This document shows, one piece after another, positions 12,228 to 40,596 of a DNA stretch of 64,000 nt; within the stretch, counting starts at the first letter, position 1; each line of letters opens with the position of its first letter. The stretch is from the NCBI RefSeq assembly GCF_007859765.1, contig NZ_SIHJ01000005.1, positions 62,001 to 126,000 of the forward strand, given 5' to 3'. The notes under the pieces are model-generated. The model saw only the letters and a list, made by a program, of their open reading frames with translations. It ran no database searches and was not told the origin of the DNA. The translations under genes and the position numbers were made by a program. Source of the DNA: Posidoniimonas corsicana. GTDB taxonomy: Bacteria > Planctomycetota > Planctomycetia > Pirellulales > Lacipirellulaceae.

Positions 12228-13448
12228 CTAGAACGCGCCCTCGGCCCGCAGGAACCAGCCGTCGAACGCCAGGATGTTGGCGTCGTCGAAGCTGTTGAGC
12301 TGGCCGCCGGTGGTGGCCGCAAAGTTGTACTCGGCGCGGTGCCCCAGGTCGTGCCACGCGGAGAACAGGTAGCCAGCGCTCAGGTTCATGCTCTTGGTCA
12401 GCGCGACGGTGCCGCCGGCCTCGATCTCGGTGACCGGGATCACGTGGGTGCAGCTGATGCTGGACGGGGTGAAGACGTTCGACCCGGTGGCGTCGGTGCC
12501 GACGGCCGAGTAGTCCAGGTCACCCACCAGCAGCGAGAGGTCGGCCTTCAGGAACACGCTGGTCATGCCCGTCTTGCCAAAGTAGCGGCGCCCCAGGAAC
12601 CCGCCCCGCAGACCAACGCCGGTGAAGTCCACGCGGCTGTAGGCGCTGCGGCTCGGCACCGCGGTGGTGCTCACGATGTTGTTGGCGTAGTTCAGCTGCG
12701 AGCTGATGTCAGCGAACCGCACGGCGCCGGTCCAGGTAATGTCCCAGGCGGGGCACCAGCAACCACAGGGGTCGCAGCAGCCGTCGCCGCAGGGGTCGCA
12801 GCAGTCACCGCAGTCGCTGCAGCCCAGGGCGCAGCCGAGCGGGATGGTCTTCATGCAGGCCAGGTCGAAGTTGTTCAGGTCGACCGAGGCGTTTCCGAAG
12901 AGGGTGTCGCCATCGCCGGCGGGGACCACCTCGAACGGAGCGGCGATATCGACCGTGCCTGAGCCGGACGGGCCGACCTGCGCCACGCTGTTAAAGTCGC
13001 CGTCGCTGCTGAAGTTGGAGTAGGTGAAGCGGAACTCCTGCCCGCACTCCGGAATCCGGCAACCGACGTACAGGCGGTACGACGGGTCGTGGCTGAACTC
13101 AAACTGGTGGTACCGGATGAACTCGTTGTTGTTGGCCAGGTCGACGGTGTTGTTCTCGACGTAGGCGATCTGCTGGCTGTGGGTCGCGCGGAGCTGTAGA
13201 TACTCAACGCCCGCTACGATCTGATGGGTGCACCCGGTGGAGCCCAGCCCGAGGTCGGCTAGGCCCGACTGAAACTGGACGAGCTCAACGTTGCTGCCGC
13301 CGCCCAAGAAGGCCGCGTTCTCAACGCTTTGCGAGTCGCCTTCGTAGACTGCCTGCGTGGCGTCCTGCTGAGCGGTCGCGCCGCTGGCCAGAACCCCCAG
13401 GGCGACGCCCAGGGTGAGCGCATACCTTGCGCACAGAAGCTTACTCAT
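12228..13448 (-). CDS. Cys-rich outer-membrane beta-barrel protein
   Basis: The 406-residue protein begins at the ATG at 13446-13448 after a GGGGGG-rich site, with a signal peptide ending near ATAQQ (residue 27). Alternating hydrophobic strands (VEYLQLRATH, YHQFEFSHDPSYRLYVGC, GLRGGFLGRRYFG, SAGYLFSAWHDLGHRAEYNF) and a Phe at the C-terminus indicate an outer-membrane barrel of the Lpg1974/BBP7-like planctomycete type. Residues 206-232 hold 11 Cys in CxxC/CC arrays (CGDCCDPCGDGCCDPC), possibly a metal-binding or disulfide-rich insertion. It belongs to the same general type as the protein at 32515-33771. Function unknown. Confidence 0.82.
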   Translation of the reverse strand: MSKLLCARYALTLGVALGVLASGATAQQDATQAVYEGDSQSVENAAFLGGGSNVELVQFQSGLADLGLGSTGCTHQIVAGVEYLQLRATHSQQIAYVENNTVDLANNNEFIRYHQFEFSHDPSYRLYVGCRIPECGQEFRFTYSNFSSDGDFNSVAQVGPSGSGTVDIAAPFEVVPAGDGDTLFGNASVDLNNFDLACMKTIPLGCALGCSDCGDCCDPCGDGCCDPCGCWCPAWDITWTGAVRFADISSQLNYANNIVSTTAVPSRSAYSRVDFTGVGLRGGFLGRRYFGKTGMTSVFLKADLSLLVGDLDYSAVGTDATGSNVFTPSSISCTHVIPVTEIEAGGTVALTKSMNLSAGYLFSAWHDLGHRAEYNFAATTGGQLNSFDDANILAFDGWFLRAEGAF

Positions 13449-13674
13449 TTCGATTTCCCCCCTTTTGGATCCCGACCGCCTGGCTTGGCGAACTATCGCC
13501 TGCGGGGCCACGCAGACCGGAGAAAGCGCTCGTAGAACGCGTCCCGCCAATCACGAGACGTATCCAAGGATCGGAAACCTCATGGCCGGCACTTTGCTGT
13601 TTTTCGGCACAATCCGAACAACCCCGACCGGCGGCACAGCCGGAACAACCCGCACCACTGGGCGCACAAAGAAA

Positions 13675-26971: not shown

Positions 26972-28858
26972 CTAGTCCAGCGTCACCTCGAGCGCCGGGA
27001 TGTTGAGCCGCGGGTTGTAGCGGCCGACCAGGTTGACCCACAGCAGCTCGCGGTACTCGTCGCTGGGGAGGTCTTCGGACAGGATCACTCCCACCTGGGT
27101 CACGGAGCGGCCGGGCGCCGACGCGGCGGCGTGGGCCGCGAGCCGCCGGCCCAGGTCGAGCGTCTCGCCGAGGTAGAGGGCTTCCTTGGAGCGGTTCCGC
27201 AGCAGGTAGATGCCGGGCTGCTCGTCCAGCTTGTCGGCCTTGAACCGCGACCAGGGCTGGAAGCGGGGGAAGTCCTTCTTCTCCAGCACAAAGTGGTACT
27301 GCTTGGCCTCGGTCGCCAGCGAGTGCCGCACCTTGCGGAGCCGCAGCGCGGCCCACCGGAGCTCCGCCGGGTCGTGGTCCTTGACGTACTTGGCCGCGGT
27401 GCGGTCGAACAGGTACGCCTTGCCGGGCGAGCAGAGCAGCGCGTCGAGCGACCAGCCCGGGAACTTCCGCTCCATCTCGGCCCAGGCGATCTCGCCGGCG
27501 AAGGCGAACTCGTCGCGTTGCTCGGGCGAGAACTCCACCTTCTTCAGCCAGCCGTGCTTCTCGTCGTCGCGGCGGGCGAGCCGCCCCGCCTTGCGGAGCT
27601 TCAGCAGCTCGCGGTTCCAGTCGCCGGCGCGGCCGATCATGCCCGACTCGCGGCACTTGGCGTGGAACGCCTCCTGCAGCTCGGGCGAGCAGAGCAGCCA
27701 GTCGACCGAGTAGCCCTCGTGCGTGTCGTGGAACGCGTCGACGATGACCTGCTGCTGCATCTCGCGGAGCGACTTCTGCTTGCGGGGCGGCGCCACCGGC
27801 TGCTCCGGGGCGCCGGCGGCGGCGATCACGGCCTGGGCGGCGGCCGCGGCCAGCTCGCCCGCCTCGGGTGCGGCCTGGTCCTCCACCTCTTCGGCGGTGG
27901 CCGCCTGCTTGAGCTCCGGCTCGAAGTCGTCCTTCTCGAAGGTCGGCAGCAGCGGGTGGTCCTTCAGCCGGCGGCCGGCGGCGGTGGTCGGCGAGCTGCT
28001 GACCGGGTCCACGGGGCCGCTCAGCTCGTCGCCCTCCTCGGCGCTGTCGAGGCGTTCGTTGGCGTAGCGGACGTACTCGTCGGAGAGCTCGAAGCCGAGC
28101 CAGCGGCGGCCCAGCTTCTTAGCGACCGCCAGCGTGGTGCCGCTGCCGGCGAACGGGTCGAGCACCAGGTCGCCCGGGTTACTGCTGATCCGCACGATCC
28201 GCCCCAGCAGCTGCTCGGGCATCTGGCAGCCGTGGAAGCCCTGCCGCTCCTTGAACGTGCCCGCCACCCGGCTGTAGTACCAGGTGTCGTCCATCGGCTG
28301 GAACGCCTCGGGCTGGTCGCGCAGGTCCTGCGGCCGCAGGATCCAGGTGTCGTCGGGCAGCCGGCCGGTGGGGTTGGCGCGCTTGTCGCCGTAGACAAGC
28401 GCACGGGCGGAGGGGACGCGGACCTTGGGGTCCTCGGCGTTGAAGGTGTGCGGCTCGGCGCCTTCTTTGGTGAAGTGGAAGATGTGCACGTGCGAGCGGT
28501 TGAACTTCCGCTTGCAGTTCTGCCCGAAGGTGTAGTACCAGACGATCCAGTTGCGTGGTTCGAACCCGATGTTGCGGTGGGCGTCGACGCGGAGGTCGGC
28601 GGCGAACTCGTCGCCGATCGCCAGCCAGAACGCGCCGCCCGGCTTGAGCACGCGGTGCAGCTCGCTCATCCAGTCGCGGCACCATGCCATGTAGTCGTCG
28701 TCGGCGTGGTCGTCGTGGTACTGGTCGTACTCAAAGCCGATGTTGAACGGCGGGTCCGCGAACGCCATGTCCACGGAGTTGTTCGGCTGCTCGCGGAGCC
28801 GCTCCAGGCAGTCGCCGTGCAGGATTGCGTCGACGGCCGTCGGGGAGGTGACGCTCAT
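26972..28858 (-). CDS. DNA methyltransferase fused to a GIY-YIG domain
   Basis: A 628-residue protein from the ATG at 28856-28858. Residues 1-255 are a beta-class N4-cytosine/N6-adenine DNA methyltransferase: motif IV DPPF at 35-38 comes first and the SAM motif LDPFAGSGTTLAVAKK near 233 comes last. An Ala/Glu/Pro-rich linker follows. Residues about 380-515 contain two similar segments starting at 382 (GYSVDWLLCSP) and 468 (GWSLDALLCSP), each ending in an LRK element. The C-terminus (from 549) is GIY-YIG-like: GIYLLRNRSKEALYLGETLD, then LGRRLAAH. No separate restriction gene is adjacent. It may be a self-contained modification-nicking enzyme or an orphan methylase; the catalytic state of the GIY-YIG part is unproven. 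Confidence 0.88.
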   Translation of the reverse strand: MSVTSPTAVDAILHGDCLERLREQPNNSVDMAFADPPFNIGFEYDQYHDDHADDDYMAWCRDWMSELHRVLKPGGAFWLAIGDEFAADLRVDAHRNIGFEPRNWIVWYYTFGQNCKRKFNRSHVHIFHFTKEGAEPHTFNAEDPKVRVPSARALVYGDKRANPTGRLPDDTWILRPQDLRDQPEAFQPMDDTWYYSRVAGTFKERQGFHGCQMPEQLLGRIVRISSNPGDLVLDPFAGSGTTLAVAKKLGRRWLGFELSDEYVRYANERLDSAEEGDELSGPVDPVSSSPTTAAGRRLKDHPLLPTFEKDDFEPELKQAATAEEVEDQAAPEAGELAAAAAQAVIAAAGAPEQPVAPPRKQKSLREMQQQVIVDAFHDTHEGYSVDWLLCSPELQEAFHAKCRESGMIGRAGDWNRELLKLRKAGRLARRDDEKHGWLKKVEFSPEQRDEFAFAGEIAWAEMERKFPGWSLDALLCSPGKAYLFDRTAAKYVKDHDPAELRWAALRLRKVRHSLATEAKQYHFVLEKKDFPRFQPWSRFKADKLDEQPGIYLLRNRSKEALYLGETLDLGRRLAAHAAASAPGRSVTQVGVILSEDLPSDEYRELLWVNLVGRYNPRLNIPALEVTLD

Positions 28859-29012
28859 AGGGATGTATCCGCGGAAACGTGGCTGCAGTAGAATACCGAA
28901 AATACCCAGCCTAACCGGCGCTCGGCGGCGGGGCAATTAGCGCTCATCTGTGCGCTCCGGCGGCCCGGACGCGGCCGCCCGTTCCACTCGACTCTCTCCA
29001 CGCTCCCCAAGC

Positions 29013-29854: not shown

Positions 29855-30559
29855 TCAGTTGGTCGGCGGCGGCGCCACCACGCGGCTCGGCAGGGTGTGC
29901 ATCAGCTGGTCGTTGGTGCGGCCCAGCTGCACGTCGTCCAGGCGGAGGGTGAGCGCCGAGTGCGTGGGCGGCTTGGCGCCCGGCTTCGCGACCGCCAGCG
30001 CCAGGTTCTTCTGCCACTGGCATGCGAAGTCCCGCGGGTGCAGCCGGATGTTGCCGCGGATCGGGTCGGCCAGGTAGATCCACCGCATGTCGGAGCCGCG
30101 GTAGACGACAAAGTGCTTGAAGTCGTCCTTCTCGATGCCGATCACCAGCGGCGTCTTGGCTTCGAGCAGCTTCTCCATTGTCAGCTTGGCGACCACCGAC
30201 TGGTAGCCCAGCTTCACCGCCGCGCGGCGGATGTCGCTCAGCGCCAGGCCGTTCTCGATGCGGTCCTGCACCTCCTCGGGGGTGAGGATCTTGTCGAGCT
30301 GGCGGAGGACGTCCTGCTCGGTGACGTCGTCGCCCAGGTGGTAGCGGAGCACGGTCGCGAGCGCCGCGGCGCCGCACGAGTAGTCGCGGCTCTGCATCAC
30401 GATGTTGCGCTGCCGCAGGGCCTGCCAGCTCGCCACCCGGCGGGCGATCAGGTGTCCGTCGTCCCGCACCGGGGGCCCGGCCGCTGGCCGCTCGGCGGCG
30501 GCGTCGCCGCACAGGGCCAGGAGCGTGAGCGTCGCAATCAGCCGGGCGGGCGGCTTCAT
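29855..30559 (-). CDS. Secreted C39-like cysteine peptidase (FapD-like)
   Basis: A 234-residue protein from the ATG at 30557-30559 with a signal peptide (ATLTLLALCGDAAA). The peptidase C39 core is clear: QSRDYSCGAAALATVL with oxyanion Gln56 and nucleophile Cys62, His149 in KHFVVYRG, and Asp165 in IYLADP. Unlike bacteriocin exporters it has no ABC or membrane domain; it is a stand-alone periplasmic protein. It is the second gene of an operon, 22 bases after the outer-membrane barrel gene. In Pseudomonas the C39 protein FapD sits with the pore FapF and amyloid subunits, so a role in processing or export of small secreted proteins is inferred. Confidence 0.88.
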   Translation of the reverse strand: MKPPARLIATLTLLALCGDAAAERPAAGPPVRDDGHLIARRVASWQALRQRNIVMQSRDYSCGAAALATVLRYHLGDDVTEQDVLRQLDKILTPEEVQDRIENGLALSDIRRAAVKLGYQSVVAKLTMEKLLEAKTPLVIGIEKDDFKHFVVYRGSDMRWIYLADPIRGNIRLHPRDFACQWQKNLALAVAKPGAKPPTHSALTLRLDDVQLGRTNDQLMHTLPSRVVAPPPTN

Positions 30560-30581
30560 GGGGGCGTCCTGCTGCGGGGGG

Positions 30582-32036
30582 CTAGTAGGTCCAGACGATG
30601 CCGAACCGGGTGTCGGCGGCGTCATCGGTGGTGCCGATGTCGACGAACGGCTCGACGATGTGCTGGCACTTGAAGATGGTCGCGGCGAAGCGGAGCGACA
30701 TCGGCTCCTGCAACGACCCCGGCACGCTGACGCCGTCGAGCTGCGTGCGGGTGATGTAGGTCGCATTGAAGCGGGTGCTCAGCGTGATGTTCTGGTTGAC
30801 CGCGAACCCAAGCCCGAGCGTCGCGCGGAACTCGTTGCCCGGCCGCACGTCGACTCCGAAGAACTCGCTCTCGAACCGGTGCCGCATCCCCACGCCGTAG
30901 AACACCACGACCGGGTCGTAGCTGTTGATCCACAGGAGGTCCGCCGACAGCGCCCAGAACCCCTCGCCCAACGCCGGCTGCGACTGGCCCAGCAGGGTGC
31001 TCGGGAAGGGGTCGTCGCCGGTGGGCAGCGTTGCGGCCACGGTCAGCACCGTGTCGGTGCAGCGGCCCTGCCCATCAAACAGCAGGAAGGTGAGCCCGGT
31101 TGTCGTGTCGCCCAGGCCGCCGTAGTTGTCGTCGAACGAGAACGACTCGGTGGCGAACTCGTTGTTGGCCCAGCCCACCGTCGACCCGACAAAGAACTGC
31201 GCCCGCCGGGTCAGCCCGTAGCGTAGCTCGAGCGGGACCACCAGCTCGCGCTGGCGGACCCGGGCCTCAACGAGGTTGCTGCCCGAGTCGACGACCGTGA
31301 AGTCGTTCTCCACGAGCTGGTACACCACGCCCAGGTCGCACTGCATCTGCCCCGGCTCAAGCAGCACGGTCGCGGTGCGGAGGAACTGAAGGCTGGTGTC
31401 GACCGGCTCCTCGCCGAGCGACTCGGCTTCGGCCAACCCGCCCCCGCCCGGGGCGTTGGCGTCGGGCGCCGGGACCGGGGCCGCCGGCTGCTGCGGCACG
31501 GTCGAGGGGATCGGGATGATCTCCGCGTTGGGCTGCTCGCCGGGGATCTGCAGCTGCTCGTTCTGGGCGAGCGCGAAGGGGCTGCCCGGCGCCGGCGGCA
31601 ACGCGGCCGCCGCCTGGGGGGCGGCCGCGTTGCGCCAGTGGAGCGGGCCGAGCAGGTCGACCGATTGGCCGAGCCCGTTGGTCGGCGCGGGCGGCGAGGG
31701 GTTCGCACCGGGCGTGAAACGCTCTCGACGCGGATTGGTCCAGGAGAACGGCCCCAGCAGCCCGGCGGCCGGGTTGGGCTGGGAACGCACGTACTGGGTC
31801 GCCTCGTTGGACGCCTGGTTGGTCCACTCCAGCGGGCCCGAAAGGTCCTGCCCTTCTGACTGGTAGGCGACCGGTTGAGTCTGCTGCTCCGACCAGCCCG
31901 CCCAGCCAAACGCCCGCTCGGCGTCCGGGGTTTCGGCCCCTGCCATAGTTGGGGCCGCCACCATCAGCAGGCACGTCGCGGCGAAGCGGAACGCCCGCGC
32001 GGCGTGTATCGGGTTGGCGGTAGGGGGTAGCGTCAT
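30582..32036 (-). CDS. Outer-membrane beta-barrel transporter with periplasmic repeats (FapF-like)
   Basis: A 484-residue protein with a signal peptide (about 1-34). The N-terminal region carries three copies of the motif L-x-G-P-L/F-x-W-T/R-N at residues 65-73, 93-101 and 128-136, then a Pro/Ala-rich linker (about 150-205). The last 270 residues alternate as barrel strands (MQCDLGVVYQLVENDFTVV, ELVVPLELRYGLTRRAQFFV, TTTGLTFLLFDGQG, LTVAATLPTGDDPFPS) and end in WTY, a C-terminal aromatic expected for BAM insertion. This fits the phenol-MetA-degradation-like barrel group to which FapF-type pores are similar. It is first gene of an operon with the C39 peptidase. FapF assignment is an inference. 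Confidence 0.82.
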   Translation of the reverse strand: MTLPPTANPIHAARAFRFAATCLLMVAAPTMAGAETPDAERAFGWAGWSEQQTQPVAYQSEGQDLSGPLEWTNQASNEATQYVRSQPNPAAGLLGPFSWTNPRRERFTPGANPSPPAPTNGLGQSVDLLGPLHWRNAAAPQAAAALPPAPGSPFALAQNEQLQIPGEQPNAEIIPIPSTVPQQPAAPVPAPDANAPGGGGLAEAESLGEEPVDTSLQFLRTATVLLEPGQMQCDLGVVYQLVENDFTVVDSGSNLVEARVRQRELVVPLELRYGLTRRAQFFVGSTVGWANNEFATESFSFDDNYGGLGDTTTGLTFLLFDGQGRCTDTVLTVAATLPTGDDPFPSTLLGQSQPALGEGFWALSADLLWINSYDPVVVFYGVGMRHRFESEFFGVDVRPGNEFRATLGLGFAVNQNITLSTRFNATYITRTQLDGVSVPGSLQEPMSLRFAATIFKCQHIVEPFVDIGTTDDAADTRFGIVWTY

Positions 32037-32514
32037 ACAGGTTCAGGGCGCCTGCCCGTGAGCGTCGTCAACGCCCGTGCTTGGTTCTAGGTCGGTCCGA
32101 GGGCGTGCGACAATGCGGCCGGTTGCGCCGCCTGCCGCGACCGTGCGTGTCGAGGCAGTCGTCACGGCTAGTGGGGTTGATCGGCAGGTTCCGGAACTAT
32201 CTTCATTAGGGCCGCGCTCCCCGGGTGGGGGGATCGCGGGCGGCTTCGGCCTGAGCCGGTTAGGCAAGCCGGGACGCCAAACCGCGCTCGCCGGCGTTAA
32301 GCAGTGCCGGTTGCGCCGGATCACCCGGTCAGGGGGAACCGATCAGCTTGACGCGGCAATGTGTCATGGCGCGGCTGATCGGGTCGATCCTGCCCTAGGA
32401 GATCGCACGGATGCGGTCACTGTGCGGGCGCCGGCGAGGGCGCCCGGTCAGGGCAGACCACCCACCCCAGCTACGGCAGAGCGCCCGGCCTCACCCCCTG
32501 GGCGAGAACGCGAT
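32037..32514. other. Intergenic region between divergent outer-membrane protein genes
   Basis: No coding frame is supported. It must hold promoters for the barrel-C39 operon (minus) and the Cys-rich barrel (plus). A GGGCGCC/GGCGCCC hairpin lies around 32428-32448. No clear promoter boxes could be identified. Confidence 0.45.
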
Positions 32515-33771
32515 ATGAAACTTCCCCCGCTGCTTGTCTGCGTGCTTTCGATCAGCTTCGGCGCCGCGTTGTCGGGGAGCGCGTTCGGCCAGGGCGACGT
32601 GCGGACCCTCCCCCCGGTGGCGCCGGCCGCCGGCGAGGCGTTGTGCGTGACGTACACCTCCGCCGCGCAGGCGTTGGGGCAGGAGCCGGTCTTTGTCGGG
32701 GCGGCCGACGACGCTGCTCAGGACTACGACACCGCGATCACGACCATCGCCTGCGAGAAGTGCTGCGCCGACGAGTGCTGCACCGACGGCTGCTGCGACA
32801 TGGGCTGCTGCCCGCCCTGCGTGCCGACCTACTGGGTGGCGGGCGTCGAGGCGACCTTCCTGGCGCCGGACATGAACGCCGGCACGGTCAGCTACCGCCT
32901 GCAGGACGAGTTCAGCAGCCCGCAGCTGGACGCCACGTTCGGCAGCGACGACGCCGCGGTCAACGACTTCTACATTGCGCCCCGGATGTGGCTCGGCGTG
33001 CAGCACGGCTGCCACGGCGTGGCGGTGCGGTACTGGCACCTGCAGGCCGCCGAGGCGGCGTTCGACCCGTTCACCTTCACGCCGCCCGGGCCGACGCTGG
33101 ACTACGGCTACTTCATCCACAACCGCCTGGACGCGTACACGATCGACCTGGAGGGCACCCGCAGCTTCTGCGTGTACGACACCAAGAACACCTTCACGTT
33201 CGGCGTGCGGTACGCGCTGCTGCAGCACGACACCGCGCTCAGCGTCGACGCCCAGGTGGACAACGGCGCCAGCGGAACCGGCGTCATCAGCGGCAACGCC
33301 CGGGCCAACCGCCTGGCGGCGGGCACCGGCATCACCAGCTCGCTGTCGGGACGCAAGCCGCTGTTCTGCGACTCCTGCATCCACCTGTTCTACGGCGCCC
33401 GCGGCTCGGTGGTGTGGGGCAGCATCAGCAACAGTGTCGAGACCGACACCATCGAGGTGACCGCCGGCGCGACCGCCGGGTCGTACAACGGCGCCGTGGC
33501 CGAGGTTGACGACGCCATGTTCATCGGCGAGGTGCAGCTCGGCCTGGAGTTCGACTACCGCGTGGTCTGCTTCCCGGCCGACGCGTTCTTCCGCGTCGCG
33601 CTTGAGTACCAGTACTGGAACGCCGACTCGGGCAGCGCGGTCGCCAGCTCGTTCGCGGGCTTCGGCGGGCCGTCGCCCACGCCGCTGTCGCAGGGCCAGG
33701 CCTACGCCCAGGCCAACGGCGCCACGCTCGACCTGATCGGCCTGTCGGTCGGCACCGGCTTCACCTGGTGA
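32515..33771 (+). CDS. Cys-rich outer-membrane beta-barrel protein
   Basis: A 418-residue protein from the ATG at 32515 with signal peptide (LVCVLSISFGAALSGSAFGQ). Residues 80-102 carry ten Cys (CEKCCADECCTDGCCDMGCC) just before the first strand YWVAGVEATFLAPDMN. The rest alternates as barrel strands (FYIAPRMWLGVQ, HGVAVRYWHLQA, TFTFGVRYALLQHDTAL, GEVQLGLEFDYRV, FFRVALEYQYWNAD) and ends in GTGFTW, with a terminal aromatic. It is of the same type as the protein at 12228-13448, where the Cys cluster is in mid-protein. Lpg1974/BBP7-like; function unknown. It has its own terminator. Confidence 0.83.
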   Translation: MKLPPLLVCVLSISFGAALSGSAFGQGDVRTLPPVAPAAGEALCVTYTSAAQALGQEPVFVGAADDAAQDYDTAITTIACEKCCADECCTDGCCDMGCCPPCVPTYWVAGVEATFLAPDMNAGTVSYRLQDEFSSPQLDATFGSDDAAVNDFYIAPRMWLGVQHGCHGVAVRYWHLQAAEAAFDPFTFTPPGPTLDYGYFIHNRLDAYTIDLEGTRSFCVYDTKNTFTFGVRYALLQHDTALSVDAQVDNGASGTGVISGNARANRLAAGTGITSSLSGRKPLFCDSCIHLFYGARGSVVWGSISNSVETDTIEVTAGATAGSYNGAVAEVDDAMFIGEVQLGLEFDYRVVCFPADAFFRVALEYQYWNADSGSAVASSFAGFGGPSPTPLSQGQAYAQANGATLDLIGLSVGTGFTW

Positions 33772-33802
33772 CCCCCTGAGATCGGCCTGATAAACACGAA
33801 GA

Positions 33803-33834
33803 GGCCCGGACGCGTCGCCTCGTCCGGGCCTTCT
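33803..33834 (+). terminator. Terminator of the Cys-rich barrel gene
   Basis: A 10-bp perfect stem GGCCCGGACG/CGTCCGGGCC with an eight-base loop, followed by TTCTT. Confidence 0.82.
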
Positions 33835-33880
33835 TGCGTTGCTCTCCTCTGCCAGCCCCGCGCGGGGCGTGGATCGCTGT

Positions 33881-33912
33881 CGCTTAGAACGACATCTGCT
33901 TAGAACGACATC
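33881..33912. repeat. 16-bp tandem duplication across the stop codon of the small exported-protein gene
   Basis: Two adjacent units of GCTTAGAACGACATC preceded by C or T (33881-33896 and 33897-33912). The second unit contains the last codons and stop of the gene at 33900-34313; the first repeats them downstream, so the terminal Met-Ser-Phe-stop is present twice. Confidence 0.8.
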
Positions 33913-34313
33913 GACGACGAGTAGCCGCCCGCGTACACGCGGATCGACTTGGTCGTCTTGATCGACTTCTTGATTCCGCCGATGTTGACGACCTTGGTGT
34001 TGGTCTTTGTCAGGCCGGCCTCGGAGAAGTTCTCGCCCGATGCGGCGTAGCGGCCGGCGGCCAGGTAGCCGTTGACGCTGCCCGCCGCCGCGTTGTTGGC
34101 GCCCACGCCGGCGAACGATCCGCCCGCGGCGATCGAGATCGGCAGGTAGCCCATGCCGCGCACCTCGGCGGCGGTGGCGTCGCTCACCACCGTGGCGCCG
34201 CCCAGGCCCATCGCCTCGAGCGTGGCCGCGGGGACAACGCCGTCGGCGGCGTGCGCCTGACCAACCATCGAGATCGCAGCGACACAAGCGCTCAGCAAGA
34301 GACTCTTCTTCAT
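33900..34313 (-). CDS. Small exported Gly/Ala-rich protein with VRG motif
   Basis: A 137-residue protein from the ATG at 34311-34313 (an ATG three codons upstream is possible). Signal peptide about 1-22 (MKKSLLLSACVAAISMVGQA). After it comes TLEAMGLGGATVVSDATAAE followed by VRGMGY, then a Gly/Ala/Ser-rich segment (ISIAAGGSFAGVGANNAAAG, VNGYLAAGRY), a Lys/Thr tail and VYAGGYSSS at the end. It is clearly paralogous to the protein at 34705-35106, encoded divergently. No enzyme motif. Candidate substrate of the C39-peptidase/barrel system just upstream, possibly a fibre-forming or surface protein; this is inference. Confidence 0.85.
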   Translation of the reverse strand: MKKSLLLSACVAAISMVGQAHAADGVVPAATLEAMGLGGATVVSDATAAEVRGMGYLPISIAAGGSFAGVGANNAAAGSVNGYLAAGRYAASGENFSEAGLTKTNTKVVNIGGIKKSIKTTKSIRVYAGGYSSSMSF

Positions 34314-34704
34314 AGCAAGCATTCCAGAACTGGGTGGGGAAAAGTGGGGGCGACCGTCGGTTGAGCGCTGGGGGGTGGCTCGTCGGACGCGTCGGGGGGA
34401 CTCTCAATCGCGACTCACGAATCTCAGGCTAGTCGGGGCGACCGGGCCTGCAAGAGCCGCAACGGCGGGGCAGCATAGGGAAATCCCTACCCATCGGCGG
34501 GCTGTAGCGGTTGGGCCGGCCGCGCCCCGTCAGGGCCGGGATCCGCCGGCGGTTACGCGGCGTTTCTGGGCTTCGCAGAAACTTGTTGACACACGCCGCC
34601 GCCCTGATTGGAGTGGAAGGGTGCGGGTCGCGCCGCCTGTGCCGGCTGTAGCGCCGATCGGTCGCCCGCCCCGCCCCCCTCGAAGCCACACCAGGAGAAG
34701 CACC
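34314..34704. promoter_or_regulatory. Shared divergent promoter region of the two small exported-protein genes
   Basis: A 391-base gap between divergent paralogues. A TTGACA at 34586-34591 lies about 110 bases before the ATG at 34705 but no good -10 box follows at 17 bases. The symmetry suggests coordinated expression of the pair; no operator could be recognised. Confidence 0.4.
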
Positions 34705-35106
34705 ATGAGAACCATCCTCTGCGCGGCCGCGTTGATCGCGTCGGCCGCCTCGACCGCCGCCGCCCACGACGGCGCCATCGACAACAACACCCTGGCCGCG
34801 ATGGGACTGTCCGGCGCCCAGATCGTCTCGGACCAGGAAGCGTCCTCGGTCCGCGGCAACGGCTTCGCGATCGCCGCGGGCGGCTCGTTCGCCTTCGTCG
34901 GCTCGCACCACGCGGCCGCGGGCAGCGCCAACGGGTACCTCGCCGCCGGGTCCCACTTCGCTGGCGGCGTGAACGGATCGGTGGCCGGCAAGACCGTCAC
35001 ACGCACCCGCGTCGTCCGCGGACCGCGGGGCCCGGTCCGCTCGGTGCGCACCACGCGGTCGGTCAACGTGTACGCGGGCGGGTTCTCCGCCGCGGCCTCG
35101 TACTAA
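34705..35106 (+). CDS. Small exported Gly/Ala-rich protein with VRG motif, paralogue
   Basis: A 133-residue protein from the ATG at 34705, preceded by AGGAGAAG. Signal peptide about 1-20 (ILCAAALIASAASTAAA). Then NNTLAAMGLSGAQIVSDQEA, SSVRGNGFAIAAGGSFAFVG, HHAAAGSANGYLAAG, a strongly basic stretch (TRTRVVRGPRGPVRSVRTTR) and VYAGGFSAAASY. Conserved with the divergent paralogue are MGL-GA, VSD..A..VRG.G, AAGGSFA.VG, AAAGS.NGYLAAG and VYAGG. The repeated AAG/Asn/Gly pattern recalls functional-amyloid subunits in style but not in detail. Function unknown. Confidence 0.85.
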   Translation: MRTILCAAALIASAASTAAAHDGAIDNNTLAAMGLSGAQIVSDQEASSVRGNGFAIAAGGSFAFVGSHHAAAGSANGYLAAGSHFAGGVNGSVAGKTVTRTRVVRGPRGPVRSVRTTRSVNVYAGGFSAAASY

Positions 35107-38091: not shown

Positions 38092-38487
38092 AAATGAAAA
38101 CTAGTGGTCTTTGCAGGCCGCCAAGGGTTTCTGCTGCCCGGCGGCTCGAGGTCGGTTTCCGAGGGCCCCCTGCCCGGCAGGTGATGGCCGTGTCCCGTTT
38201 CCGTAGAGCGAGTCCGCAAGTATATCCTTTGTAGGGGTTTAGAGTCCAGATTCGGTCGGCAAATCCTGAAACAGTCGGCCGCGGCCGCCGTATCAGCCGG
38301 TAAGCAGGCCGGCGCGACCCCGCCCACACGGGTGACCCGCCATCGGCCAGTTAGCTTGCAGCGATTATGCCGGCTGGGTCAGCGGAAGGGCCGACAGACT
38401 GGCCCGCAGCCCAACACCGGGCAACACGGAAATCCGTGCTTGCGATACACTTATACGAATACTCCCCTCACAACCGCAGGTCGCGGT
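38092..38487. other. Intergenic region between infA and the adaptor operon
   Basis: No gene seen. It separates divergent infA and the GAF-HlyD operon and must contain both promoters. The section 38218-38240 is locally A/T-richer, but no box is convincing. Confidence 0.4.
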
Positions 38488-40596
38488 ATGCACCAGAGTC
38501 CTCCAGCCGGCATGTCCCAAGTAACCTCCTCCCCCGGGCCCGACGACGACGCCGTACGGCGCGCCAAACGGGAGATCCAGGGCATCCTGCAGCAGATCAC
38601 CGAGCTGTCCAAGTCGGACTCCTCGCCCCAGCAGTTCTACGACTCCTTCCTCAACAAGGTGGTCGCGGCCCTGGCCGCCAGCGGCGGCGCGGTGTGGACG
38701 CTCTCGGACGCGGGCGTGCTGCAGCTGGCCTACCAGATCAACCTCCGCGAGACCGGCCTGATCGAGAACCCGATCGGCCAGGAGCAGCACGGCCGCCTGC
38801 TGACGCAGGTGCTGCAGGAGCCCGACGGCAAGCTGGTGGCGCCCCACTCCGGCGCCGCCGGCGGCGCAGACACCGACGAGCACGGCGCCTCCAACCCGAC
38901 CGACTTCCTGCTGGTCATGGCCCCGGTCCACAACGACCAGGGCGTGCAGGGCATTGTCGAGGTGTTCCAGCGCCCCGGCGCCGGCGAGGCAACCAAGCGG
39001 GGCTACCTCCGCTTCCTGATGCAGACCTGCGACCTGGCGGGCGACTACCTCCGCGGCCGCCGCCTGGCGCACCTGTCGGAGAAGCAGTCGCTGTGGGAGC
39101 AGCTGGAGTCCTTCACCCGCAGCGCCCACCAGACGCTCGACGTGACCGAGGCCGCGTTCACCATCGCCAACGAGGGCCGGCGGCTGATCGGCTGCGACCG
39201 CGTGACCGTGGCGGTCAAGCACGGCAGCCGCGTCACGCTCGAGGCGATCAGCGGCCAGGACGTGTTCGACAAGCGTTCCAACACCGCCACGCTGCTGACC
39301 AAGGTCGCCCGCGCGGTCTGCAAGACCGGCGAGGACGTCTGGTTCACGGGCGACGGCTCCGGCCTGGCGCCGCAGGTCGAGAAGGCGATCGACGCCTACG
39401 TCGACGACTCGCACACCAAGAACATGGCCATCCTCCCGCTCGTCGAGCCGGAGGACGAGGACCTGCCGCCCGAGGAGAAGCAGCGCCGCAAGGGCCCGCC
39501 GAAGGTGCTGGGCGCGCTGATCGTCGAGCAGATGGTCGACAGCACCGTTCCCGAGGGCTACCGCCAGCGGGTCGACGTGGTGCGCGGGCACAGCGTCACG
39601 GCCATCGGCAACGCGCTGGAGCACAGCGGCCTGTTCCTGATGCCGGTCTGGAAGACGCTCGGCCGCGCGACCTCGCAGTTCCGCGGCCGGGCCCTGCCCA
39701 AGACCGCCACCGTGCTCACGCTGATCGCCGCCGCCATCGCGGCGGGCATGCTGGTGCAGGTGGACCTCAAGCTGCAGGGCGACGGCCGCCTGGTCCCCGT
39801 GAGCCAGAAGCCGGTGTTCGCCCGCATCGACGGCGAGGTCGAAGAGCTGCTGGTCGAGAACGGCCAGCCCGTGCAAGGCGGGCAGCCCCTGATGCGGCTC
39901 AAGAGCTACCAACTGGATTCCGAGCTCACCGACGTGCTCGGCAAGCTCGAGCAGGCCCGCGCCCGCTGGAACTCGCTCGCACGCTCCAATACCGACGAGC
40001 GGCAAGAGAAGGACGAGGACCGCGCCAAACGCTACGCCGAGCGGCTGCAGGTCGACAAGGAGATAAAGTCGCTGAACGTGCAGCTCGACATCCTCAAGAA
40101 GAAGCAGAAGCTGCTGGAGATCGTCAGCCCGATGGCGGGGCAGGTGGTGAAGTGGAAACTCAGCGACGACTTCCCGCCCGGCCGCCCCGTGCAGCAGGGC
40201 GCCACGGTGATGGAGATCGCCGACCCCAGGGGCGACTGGGAGGTCGAGGTGCTGATGCCCGAGAAGAAGATGGGGCACGTCACCCGCACCTGGAAGGAGA
40301 GCCTGGCCAACGAGGAGCCGATGAAGGTGGTGTTCATCCCCGCGTCGAAGCCCGAGGACGAGATCGAGGGCGTGGTGCAGGCGGTCGACCAGACCTCCGA
40401 GAGCCGCGGCGAGGAGGGGAACGTGGTGAAGCTGACGGTGGCCTTCGACCAGGCGGCCTTCCGCGAGCTGATGCCCAACCCGAAGATCGACGCCGCGGTG
40501 ACCGCCAACGTCTACTGCGGCAGGCGGTCGTTCTTCTACTACTGGCTGCACCCGCTGTACGACACCATCCAGCGTGAGATCGTGTTCCGCTTCTAA
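38488..40596 (+). CDS. GAF-GAF-HlyD fusion membrane protein
   Basis: A 702-residue protein from the ATG at 38488 (an ATG at 38512 is equally possible). There is no signal peptide; residues about 45-190 and 205-385 form two GAF-like domains (NKVVAALAASGGAVWTLSDA; GRRLIGCDRVTVAVKHGS). A single membrane segment follows at about 406-424 (TATVLTLIAAAIAAGMLVQV), then a periplasmic HlyD-type part: a lipoyl-like half (VFARIDGEVEELLVENGQPV), a coiled coil (about 475-560) and the returning half (VSPMAGQVVKW). So a cytoplasmic sensor or binding module is joined directly to a membrane fusion adaptor. First gene of a three-gene set. Confidence 0.88.
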   Translation: MHQSPPAGMSQVTSSPGPDDDAVRRAKREIQGILQQITELSKSDSSPQQFYDSFLNKVVAALAASGGAVWTLSDAGVLQLAYQINLRETGLIENPIGQEQHGRLLTQVLQEPDGKLVAPHSGAAGGADTDEHGASNPTDFLLVMAPVHNDQGVQGIVEVFQRPGAGEATKRGYLRFLMQTCDLAGDYLRGRRLAHLSEKQSLWEQLESFTRSAHQTLDVTEAAFTIANEGRRLIGCDRVTVAVKHGSRVTLEAISGQDVFDKRSNTATLLTKVARAVCKTGEDVWFTGDGSGLAPQVEKAIDAYVDDSHTKNMAILPLVEPEDEDLPPEEKQRRKGPPKVLGALIVEQMVDSTVPEGYRQRVDVVRGHSVTAIGNALEHSGLFLMPVWKTLGRATSQFRGRALPKTATVLTLIAAAIAAGMLVQVDLKLQGDGRLVPVSQKPVFARIDGEVEELLVENGQPVQGGQPLMRLKSYQLDSELTDVLGKLEQARARWNSLARSNTDERQEKDEDRAKRYAERLQVDKEIKSLNVQLDILKKKQKLLEIVSPMAGQVVKWKLSDDFPPGRPVQQGATVMEIADPRGDWEVEVLMPEKKMGHVTRTWKESLANEEPMKVVFIPASKPEDEIEGVVQAVDQTSESRGEEGNVVKLTVAFDQAAFRELMPNPKIDAAVTANVYCGRRSFFYYWLHPLYDTIQREIVFRF

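Follow-up and report, generated by a model that had tools for sequence, protein, structure and literature searches.

A probable Fap-related secretion locus in the planctomycete Posidoniimonas corsicana, with small proteins bearing two successive N-terminal signals

The closest described relative of the locus considered here is the functional amyloid system Fap of Pseudomonas (fapABCDEF), in which secretion of FapC requires FapD and its Cys residue (PMC5557850; for this and the other papers cited, statements are those of the portions of text available to us). The same paper calls the target of FapD unclear, says that Fap proteins lack canonical C39 sequences, describes the N-terminus of FapE as apparently processed and proposes cutting of FapF by FapD. 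A 2018 review considers the FapD substrate yet to be determined and reports colocalised fapD and fapF homologues in five further phyla (PMC6173800), and a 2025 review names FapE and FapF as presumed targets of processing by FapD (PMC12822426). Here, we analyse a barrel–peptidase locus of the planctomycete Posidoniimonas corsicana, which lies in a stretch of 64,000 nucleotides (the window; contig NZ_SIHJ01000005.1, positions 62,001 to 126,000) of a 6.77 Mb genome (G000; 13 contigs, 95% complete). It encodes a FapF-like outer-membrane barrel, a FapD-like C39 peptidase, a predicted second outer-membrane protein (OMP2) and two small exported proteins with a second leader behind their signal peptides. 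We think that it probably serves, as a relative of Fap, to secrete small, beta-rich surface proteins that are made with two N-terminal signals in a row.

The barrel gene (30582–32036, minus strand, 484 amino acids) is followed, exactly 22 bases past its stop, by the peptidase gene (29855–30559, minus strand, 234 amino acids). A first-pass annotation of the sequence had reported an exported C39 peptidase with Gln, Cys, His and Asp at this distance behind a barrel, and two small exported Gly/Ala-rich paralogues near the pair; coordinates and alignment confirm the former, and the latter are present and 50% identical over 138 residues. The genes for small protein 1 (33900–34322, minus strand, 140 amino acids) and small protein 2 (34705–35106, plus strand, 133 amino acids) are divergently oriented; the latter starts at MRTILC (34705), a start at 34375 giving merely the longest frame. 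The OMP2 gene (32515–33771, plus strand), absent from that annotation, sits between the barrel gene and the small-protein genes. A second barrel–peptidase pair is found elsewhere in the same genome (L045). Promoter and terminator scans gave results at chance level only.

By homology and predicted fold, the barrel is a member of the FapF family. A profile of nine barrel homologues, compared with 177,635 distinct PDB sequences, matched four FapF sequences with E-values between 1.8e-24 and 5.8e-23; a cohesin subunit came next, at E 0.4. The AlphaFold model of the window protein superimposed on FapF with a Z-score of 29.9 and a root-mean-square deviation of 1.7 Å over 253 residues, the COG4313 channel 4rl8 being the second-best fold (Z-score 25.9); Foldseek likewise placed FapF first (E 2e-19) and 4rl8 next. 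A search of NCBIfam at E<=1 gave FapF alone (5.7e-11; the score of 41.9 bits lies below the curated cut-off of 700), and the Pfam match was to PF13557 (9.7e-6). A similarity to FapF had been supposed in the first-pass annotation and is now evident from both the sequence profile and the structural comparison of the predicted model. The barrel domain is C-terminal (precursor residues approximately 229–484), behind a Pro-rich N-terminal region, and contains at residues 338–340 the PTG motif, which is invariant in the nine barrels and is called conserved in the FapF paper (PMC5557850). The predicted local distance difference test score (pLDDT) mostly exceeds 90 from residue 190, with one weak loop; confidence is low before that residue, where the monomer model has only three- or four-residue helices ahead of strand 1. 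As a separate observation, three GPLxWxN-type (GPxxWxN-type) repeats can be read from the sequence in the N-terminal region (precursor residues approximately 66–137); they also occur in a Bythopirellula homologue, and visual inspection of the other barrels compared shows no clear counterpart.

The peptidase gene starts with MKPPARLIA at 30559 and stops at 29855 (minus strand); its product has a Sec signal peptide, as judged from its sequence, and the catalytic residues Gln55, Cys61, His148 and Asp164. The best NCBIfam match was C39_FapD (7.5e-26, 90.8 bits; the curated equivalog cut-off of 330 is not reached), followed by FilB (1.9e-24, also below its curated cut-off), and Pfam assigned Peptidase_C39 (1.1e-18). 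The catalytic tetrad was intact in 40/40 aligned planctomycete peptidases; among the other 25 aligned, His and Asp were kept in 25/25 and Gln and Cys in 24/25, the exception being a truncated gene at the planctomycete locus L111. By homology, and with its catalytic residues kept, the protein is thus a FapD-family periplasmic C39 peptidase, and the predicted likeness to FapD stands by profile, at a score below the equivalog threshold. A FastTree phylogeny united the peptidases of planctomycetes (45 tips, and L111 as well) in a single clade (support 0.906), with Pseudomonas FapD outside it and grouped with L103 and L104; recent transfer from Pseudomonas is therefore unlikely. FilB-type putative pilus systems (NF050078), of Acinetobacter origin, also have a stand-alone C39 peptidase of similar score, but the window protein falls far below the FilB curated cut-off; this comparison covers the peptidase.

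Both small proteins match the leader profile and have homologues at other loci. Directly behind the Sec signal peptide, each has a second, double-glycine-like leader, at 34152–34247 (minus strand) in small protein 1, ending VVSDATAAEVRGM, and at 34765–34860 (plus strand) in small protein 2, ending IVSDQEASSVRGN. Across 67 aligned proteins, this leader ends hydrophobic-S-D-x-E-A/G-x-x-V/I-R-G-x, and cleavage would fall after RGx. Its conserved columns are, in order, L (60), G (66), L (60), a hydrophobic residue, S (49), D (42), any residue and E (36), then A/G at −7 (64/67), two variable positions, V/I (67/67), R (66/67), G (67/67), a variable position and G (51/67). Mean conservation is 2.25 bits in the leader versus 1.63 bits in the core, and the VRG stretch common to both small proteins is part of the leader. 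Leaders cut by C39 peptidases have the spacing L-12 xxx E-8 L-7 xxxx G-2 G-1 (PMC6959990), and the planctomycete register matches this with a hydrophobic residue at −12, E at −8 (36/67), V/I at −4 and G at −2, but departs from it with A/G at −7 and a variable residue at −1. In the AlphaFold model of small protein 2, the residues DQEASSVR (−10 to −3) form a helix, and the bound leader in PCAT1 is helical from −10 to −4 (PMC6959990). The leader resembles the double-glycine leaders of PCAT1, LahT and ComA in register, in a helix from −10 to about −4 and in the family of the peptidase, whereas here it follows a Sec signal, the peptidase is free and predicted to be periplasmic, and the core would presumably leave through a barrel in the outer membrane.

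The cores behind the second leader are divergent across loci. In 66 of the 67 aligned proteins (one truncated row was dropped), core length ranged from 29 to 133 with a median of 88, median Gly+Ala+Ser content was 40%, and none of the 66 cores contained NQQ. In the model of small protein 2, which is of modest confidence (pLDDT 70.7, predicted template modelling score 0.44), the core consists of four beta strands, each 12 to 20 residues long. Neither small protein matched an NCBIfam family at E<=1. A genome-wide profile search at E<=1 yielded the two window proteins and, as the sole further match, a weak third copy (E 0.002) at L045 11867–12169 (plus strand; contig C1 near 3600366), which adjoins the second barrel–peptidase pair on the opposite strand; E was 1.7e-3 for this protein with the uniterated profile and 2e-9 with the iterated one. 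Its core is short and very basic (Arg, Lys, Val), versus the Gly/Ala/Ser-rich cores elsewhere. L090 and L082 each have six candidate leader genes at E<=0.01.

OMP2 is an exported protein with a Cys-rich stretch in its N-terminal part, and a barrel fold is a prediction for it. Homologues occur across loci, in 29 of the 38 planctomycete loci L056–L093. A single-sequence search of its own genome found only OMP2 itself, and a profile search identified a distant relative within the window (12231–13550, minus strand, E 2e-5). The window protein had no Pfam match at E<=10; the family profile had no PDB match at E<=1, and five members compared with Pfam gave nothing credible.

The first-pass annotation had proposed co-occurrence of the small proteins with the barrel–C39 pair across Planctomycetota as a check, and this was borne out. 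With one small protein as query, 5/39 genomes gave a match (its own included), one of which (G003, E 0.0096) was rejected as a frame without signal peptide or motif. The FapD model matched 6/39 genomes, including G022 with a 748-amino-acid frame of ATP-binding cassette (ABC) transporter length. Small protein and peptidase were found together in 4/39 genomes, within approximately 5 kb in each (p 3e-4, or 9e-4 counting G022). In an even sample of the phylum comprising 392 genomes, the five genomes with a FapD match above 70 bits were the same five that had credible leader proteins (Fisher p 8e-11). The leader match in G257 (a 1032-amino-acid frame) was treated as spurious, yet counted as leader-only in that test. 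Matches of the FapD model of approximately 730–1040 amino acids were not taken as stand-alone FapD and are, by their length, presumably peptidase-containing ABC transporters; the 70-bit line also excludes uninspected frames in G270 (273 amino acids), G050 (326 amino acids, one stop) and G363 (152 amino acids). As the leader profile for the 392-genome test was built partly from all five positives, the 39-genome single-query test is the cleaner one. Co-occurrence across genomes strongly exceeds chance.

Using the peptidase as the sole query, we scanned named genomes and obtained 70 loci, of which 39 were treated as planctomycete. Removing three from training genomes (L057, L072, L075) and L062, which is on the same contig as L049, left 35; L049 was used only for the peptidase profile, and L062 has a fragment of the barrel and no leader protein. 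Among these untrained loci, which are not all independent by descent (e.g. L078/L080 and L079/L082/L086), the barrel was present in 33/35 and a leader protein in 25/35 at E<1e-3 with the uniterated profile (34/36 and 25/36 with L062 included). The iterated profile raised the latter to 29/35, but it was partly trained on these loci, so 25/35 is the fair figure. For untrained loci with at least 5 kb of upstream sequence, the proportion was 19/25 (iterated, 23/25). In 621 kb of control DNA, the sole match below E 0.2 was the planctomycete locus L111, which had been placed in the control set in error. Clustering of neighbouring genes at 42 loci recovered the peptidase (42), the barrel (39), the leader protein (32, plus a second leader cluster of 8) and OMP2 (31); the only other cluster of more than 10 loci (32 loci) runs antisense to the barrel and peptidase genes. 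Some of the clusters with 10 loci or fewer represent genuine neighbours within sub-groups. One such sub-group-specific gene, on the same strand at 8/42 loci (e.g. L082 5689–6972, plus strand), has a start that by eye resembles an MreB/Hsp70-type actin fold.

Outside the planctomycetes, we examined 26 loci with a periplasmic C39 peptidase (L094–L120 without L111). A barrel matching the same profile lay near the peptidase in 22/26, on the same strand in 20, versus 0/5 for L121–L125, where the C39 frames are approximately 720–770 amino acids long. Leader patterns were written after the planctomycete leaders had been seen, and the looser version was set after the tight result and the reading of FapE. 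The tight pattern occurred in 4/201 signal-peptide-like frames within 4 kb of the peptidase (0.05 expected from shuffling), in 2/170 beyond 4 kb and in 0/205 controls; the matches beyond 4 kb, at L103 and L104, are homologous copies of a membrane protein, and we left them out of the support. The looser pattern occurred within 3 kb in 9/322 frames at 8/26 loci (2.7 expected from shuffling), and in planctomycete loci in 44/1139 frames (8.7 expected). Canonical GG or GA leaders adjoin periplasmic C39 genes at L101, L116 and L100. The leaders include SLTDPEMAEIRGG, encoded just behind the peptidase at a Nitrospirae locus (a weak FapE-family match, 3e-4, residues 11–60, is confined there), PLSDSDLGEVTGG in Thioalkalivibrio, MNDSELAAIEGQ in a Nitrospirales bin and LSDKQLGDIKGA on a UmoA-family protein of Pseudomonas fuscovaginae (NCBIfam 2.9e-11, below cut-off; L100 8043–8594, plus strand). 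In this last protein, the leader stands behind a Sec signal, and the gene adjoins a second, non-Fap C39–barrel pair of that species.

The fap operon proper of P. fuscovaginae, whose FapF scores 738 bits and is above the cut-off, encodes a FapE in which the signal peptide is followed by FKPIEIKDQELSELRGRYVMPG. This leader form is kept in 20/20 Pseudomonas FapE loci examined, from the 28 genomes with FapE among 40. No such stretch was seen by eye in FapB and FapC of the P. fuscovaginae operon. Profile comparison of the planctomycete small-protein family with FapE aligned only the signal peptide and leader (probability 17%), and leader profiles scored FapE at chance; overall homology of the two is unsupported, and the likeness is one of motif only. 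That motif suggests FapE as the target of FapD: the leader recurs on dozens of divergent planctomycete proteins, so that its pattern can be made out, and FapE has it at a single defined position. FapD would thereby gain a testable recognition signal, and the leader could serve as a sequence handle to find substrates of this class of exporter. Pseudomonas FapA (L136 2945–3391, plus strand) has LSDGDIAGISTGA in mid-protein, a partial look-alike of a C39 leader.

By sequence, the locus is homologous to Fap in two parts, the barrel and the peptidase. It shares with Fap a FapF-like barrel with PTG and a FapD-like periplasmic C39 peptidase in one locus, together with small Sec-exported proteins, FapE having the same kind of second leader. 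It differs in the absence of NQQ from the 66 cores examined, the extra OMP2, the separate peptidase clade and the lack of FapC- or FapE-family matches in its own genome. In that genome (95% complete, as noted), neither family, FapC being the amyloid subunit with Asn/Gln repeats, gave a match at E<=1; the FapE model is the one that finds FapE in the 28 Pseudomonas genomes, and the FapC model was used without a Pseudomonas positive control. Because of this, the locus is not a Fap system by Fap's own definition. The earlier statement that no gene like FapA, FapB, FapC or FapE is present therefore holds for FapC and FapE by family searches of the genome, FapA and FapB not having been searched as families. 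Here the leader defines the candidate substrates, whereas in Pseudomonas, judging by eye from a single operon, FapE alone has it immediately behind the signal peptide. The first-pass annotation had further suggested an undescribed Fap-like version with other substrates. Homology and the new leader proteins favour this, but barrel–C39 pairs beyond Proteobacteria were already reported in 2018 (PMC6173800). What appears to be new is the substrate family, the second leader and the extra outer-membrane protein, the barrel–peptidase pair itself being known. Among the matches listed in a literature search (titles and abstract openings, supplements not covered), neither this leader nor a planctomycete version was described.

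We propose that all products of the locus would enter the periplasm by Sec, as their signal-peptide sequences suggest. Removal of the Sec signal by signal peptidase would expose a second leader of approximately 30 residues, of which the FapD-like C39 peptidase may recognise the short helix and the RGx end in double-glycine register and cut after RGx in the periplasm. The freed Gly/Ala/Ser-rich core would then pass through the FapF-like barrel to the surface, by analogy with its homologues, and would probably assemble into a fibre or coat with the help of OMP2, for which a docking or anchoring role is speculative. Of these steps, cleavage of the leader by this peptidase and export of the cores by this barrel are both likely, the former slightly more so; that the cores form amyloid-type fibres we regard as somewhat less likely than not. 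Planctomycetota would gain a candidate surface-fibre or surface-coat system. As Pseudomonas FapE has a leader of this type, FapD may act on it likewise. More broadly, the chances seem about even that there is a general Sec-dependent outer-membrane route, in which a free C39 peptidase of the periplasm removes a double-glycine-type leader that follows the Sec signal, and a FapF-type barrel exports the core. It would be used in at least Planctomycetota, Proteobacteria, Nitrospirae and Campylobacterota, with Fap as a specialised branch in which FapE is cut by FapD at LRGR/YVMPG.

Several alternatives need to be weighed against this proposal. Double-glycine leaders are classic for bacteriocin- or signal-like peptides, so the locus might remove the leader and secrete a core that acts on other cells, rather than a structural subunit. 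The cores do diverge fast and may be multiplied, as in the six candidate genes each of L090 and L082, and the L045 product is short and very basic; the lengths and Gly/Ala/Ser content of the cores, and the beta sheet predicted for the one modelled, argue weakly the other way, and we regard this explanation as unlikely. A different possibility is that the barrel, as an uptake porin of the COG4313 type, adjoins the peptidase by accident, the small proteins being processed and then staying in the periplasm or leaving by another route. COG4313/PF13557 channels have the same barrel fold, 4rl8 being the next best for our model, Pfam places the barrel in PF13557, and the PTG motif is reported there too (PMC6173800). 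However, FapF scores higher in both sequence and structure, at E<=1 the barrel profile recovers FapF but misses 4rl8, the barrel accompanies the peptidase at nearly all untrained planctomycete loci and most others, and the 2018 review, in the text available, states that no C39 peptidase had been reported beside COG4313 channels (PMC6173800). We regard this explanation, too, as unlikely.

It is also conceivable that the leader is a retention or chaperone tag and that the C39 peptidase has another target, for instance the N-terminal part of the barrel. The proposed cutting of FapF by FapD (PMC5557850) and the variable residue at −1 would suit this idea, but the register matches that of known C39 leaders, G at −2 is found in all 67 proteins and canonical GG or GA leaders adjoin periplasmic C39 genes at three loci; we think a tag improbable. 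Against the proposed Fap-related secretion of small proteins with two N-terminal signals, a number of observations weigh. Position −7 of the leader is Ala/Gly and not Leu, and −1 is variable and not Gly/Ala/Ser; in PCAT1, L(-7)A weakens binding (PMC6959990). No leader protein was found in 6/35 untrained loci even with the iterated profile, some leader genes are 7–9 kb from the peptidase, and the 19-kb stretch L055 (genome G031) has a leader protein but yielded no other part of the locus. A FapF-like coiled coil shows no sign in the N-terminal region of the barrel (low-confidence monomer model), and the model of a small protein, itself of modest confidence, matched no solved fold in the PDB (best E 0.85). 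Outside planctomycetes, enrichment of the looser pattern is only approximately threefold and only suggestive; farther away its frequency is flat (4/404 frames versus 3.5 expected), and 18/26 loci have no candidate under this pattern. For FapE, mass spectrometry did not see the first ~70 residues, which fits N-terminal processing and does not pin the site (PMC5557850). Cleavage and export are inferred here from sequence and models, and fibre formation is speculative.

Two further genes in the window deserve mention. At 38332–40596 (plus strand), a GAF domain and an HlyD-type membrane-fusion protein are joined in one gene, according to Pfam matches. At 26972–28936 (minus strand), the encoded protein has by eye an N-terminus resembling a DNA methyltransferase and a C-terminal stretch resembling a GIY-YIG nuclease.

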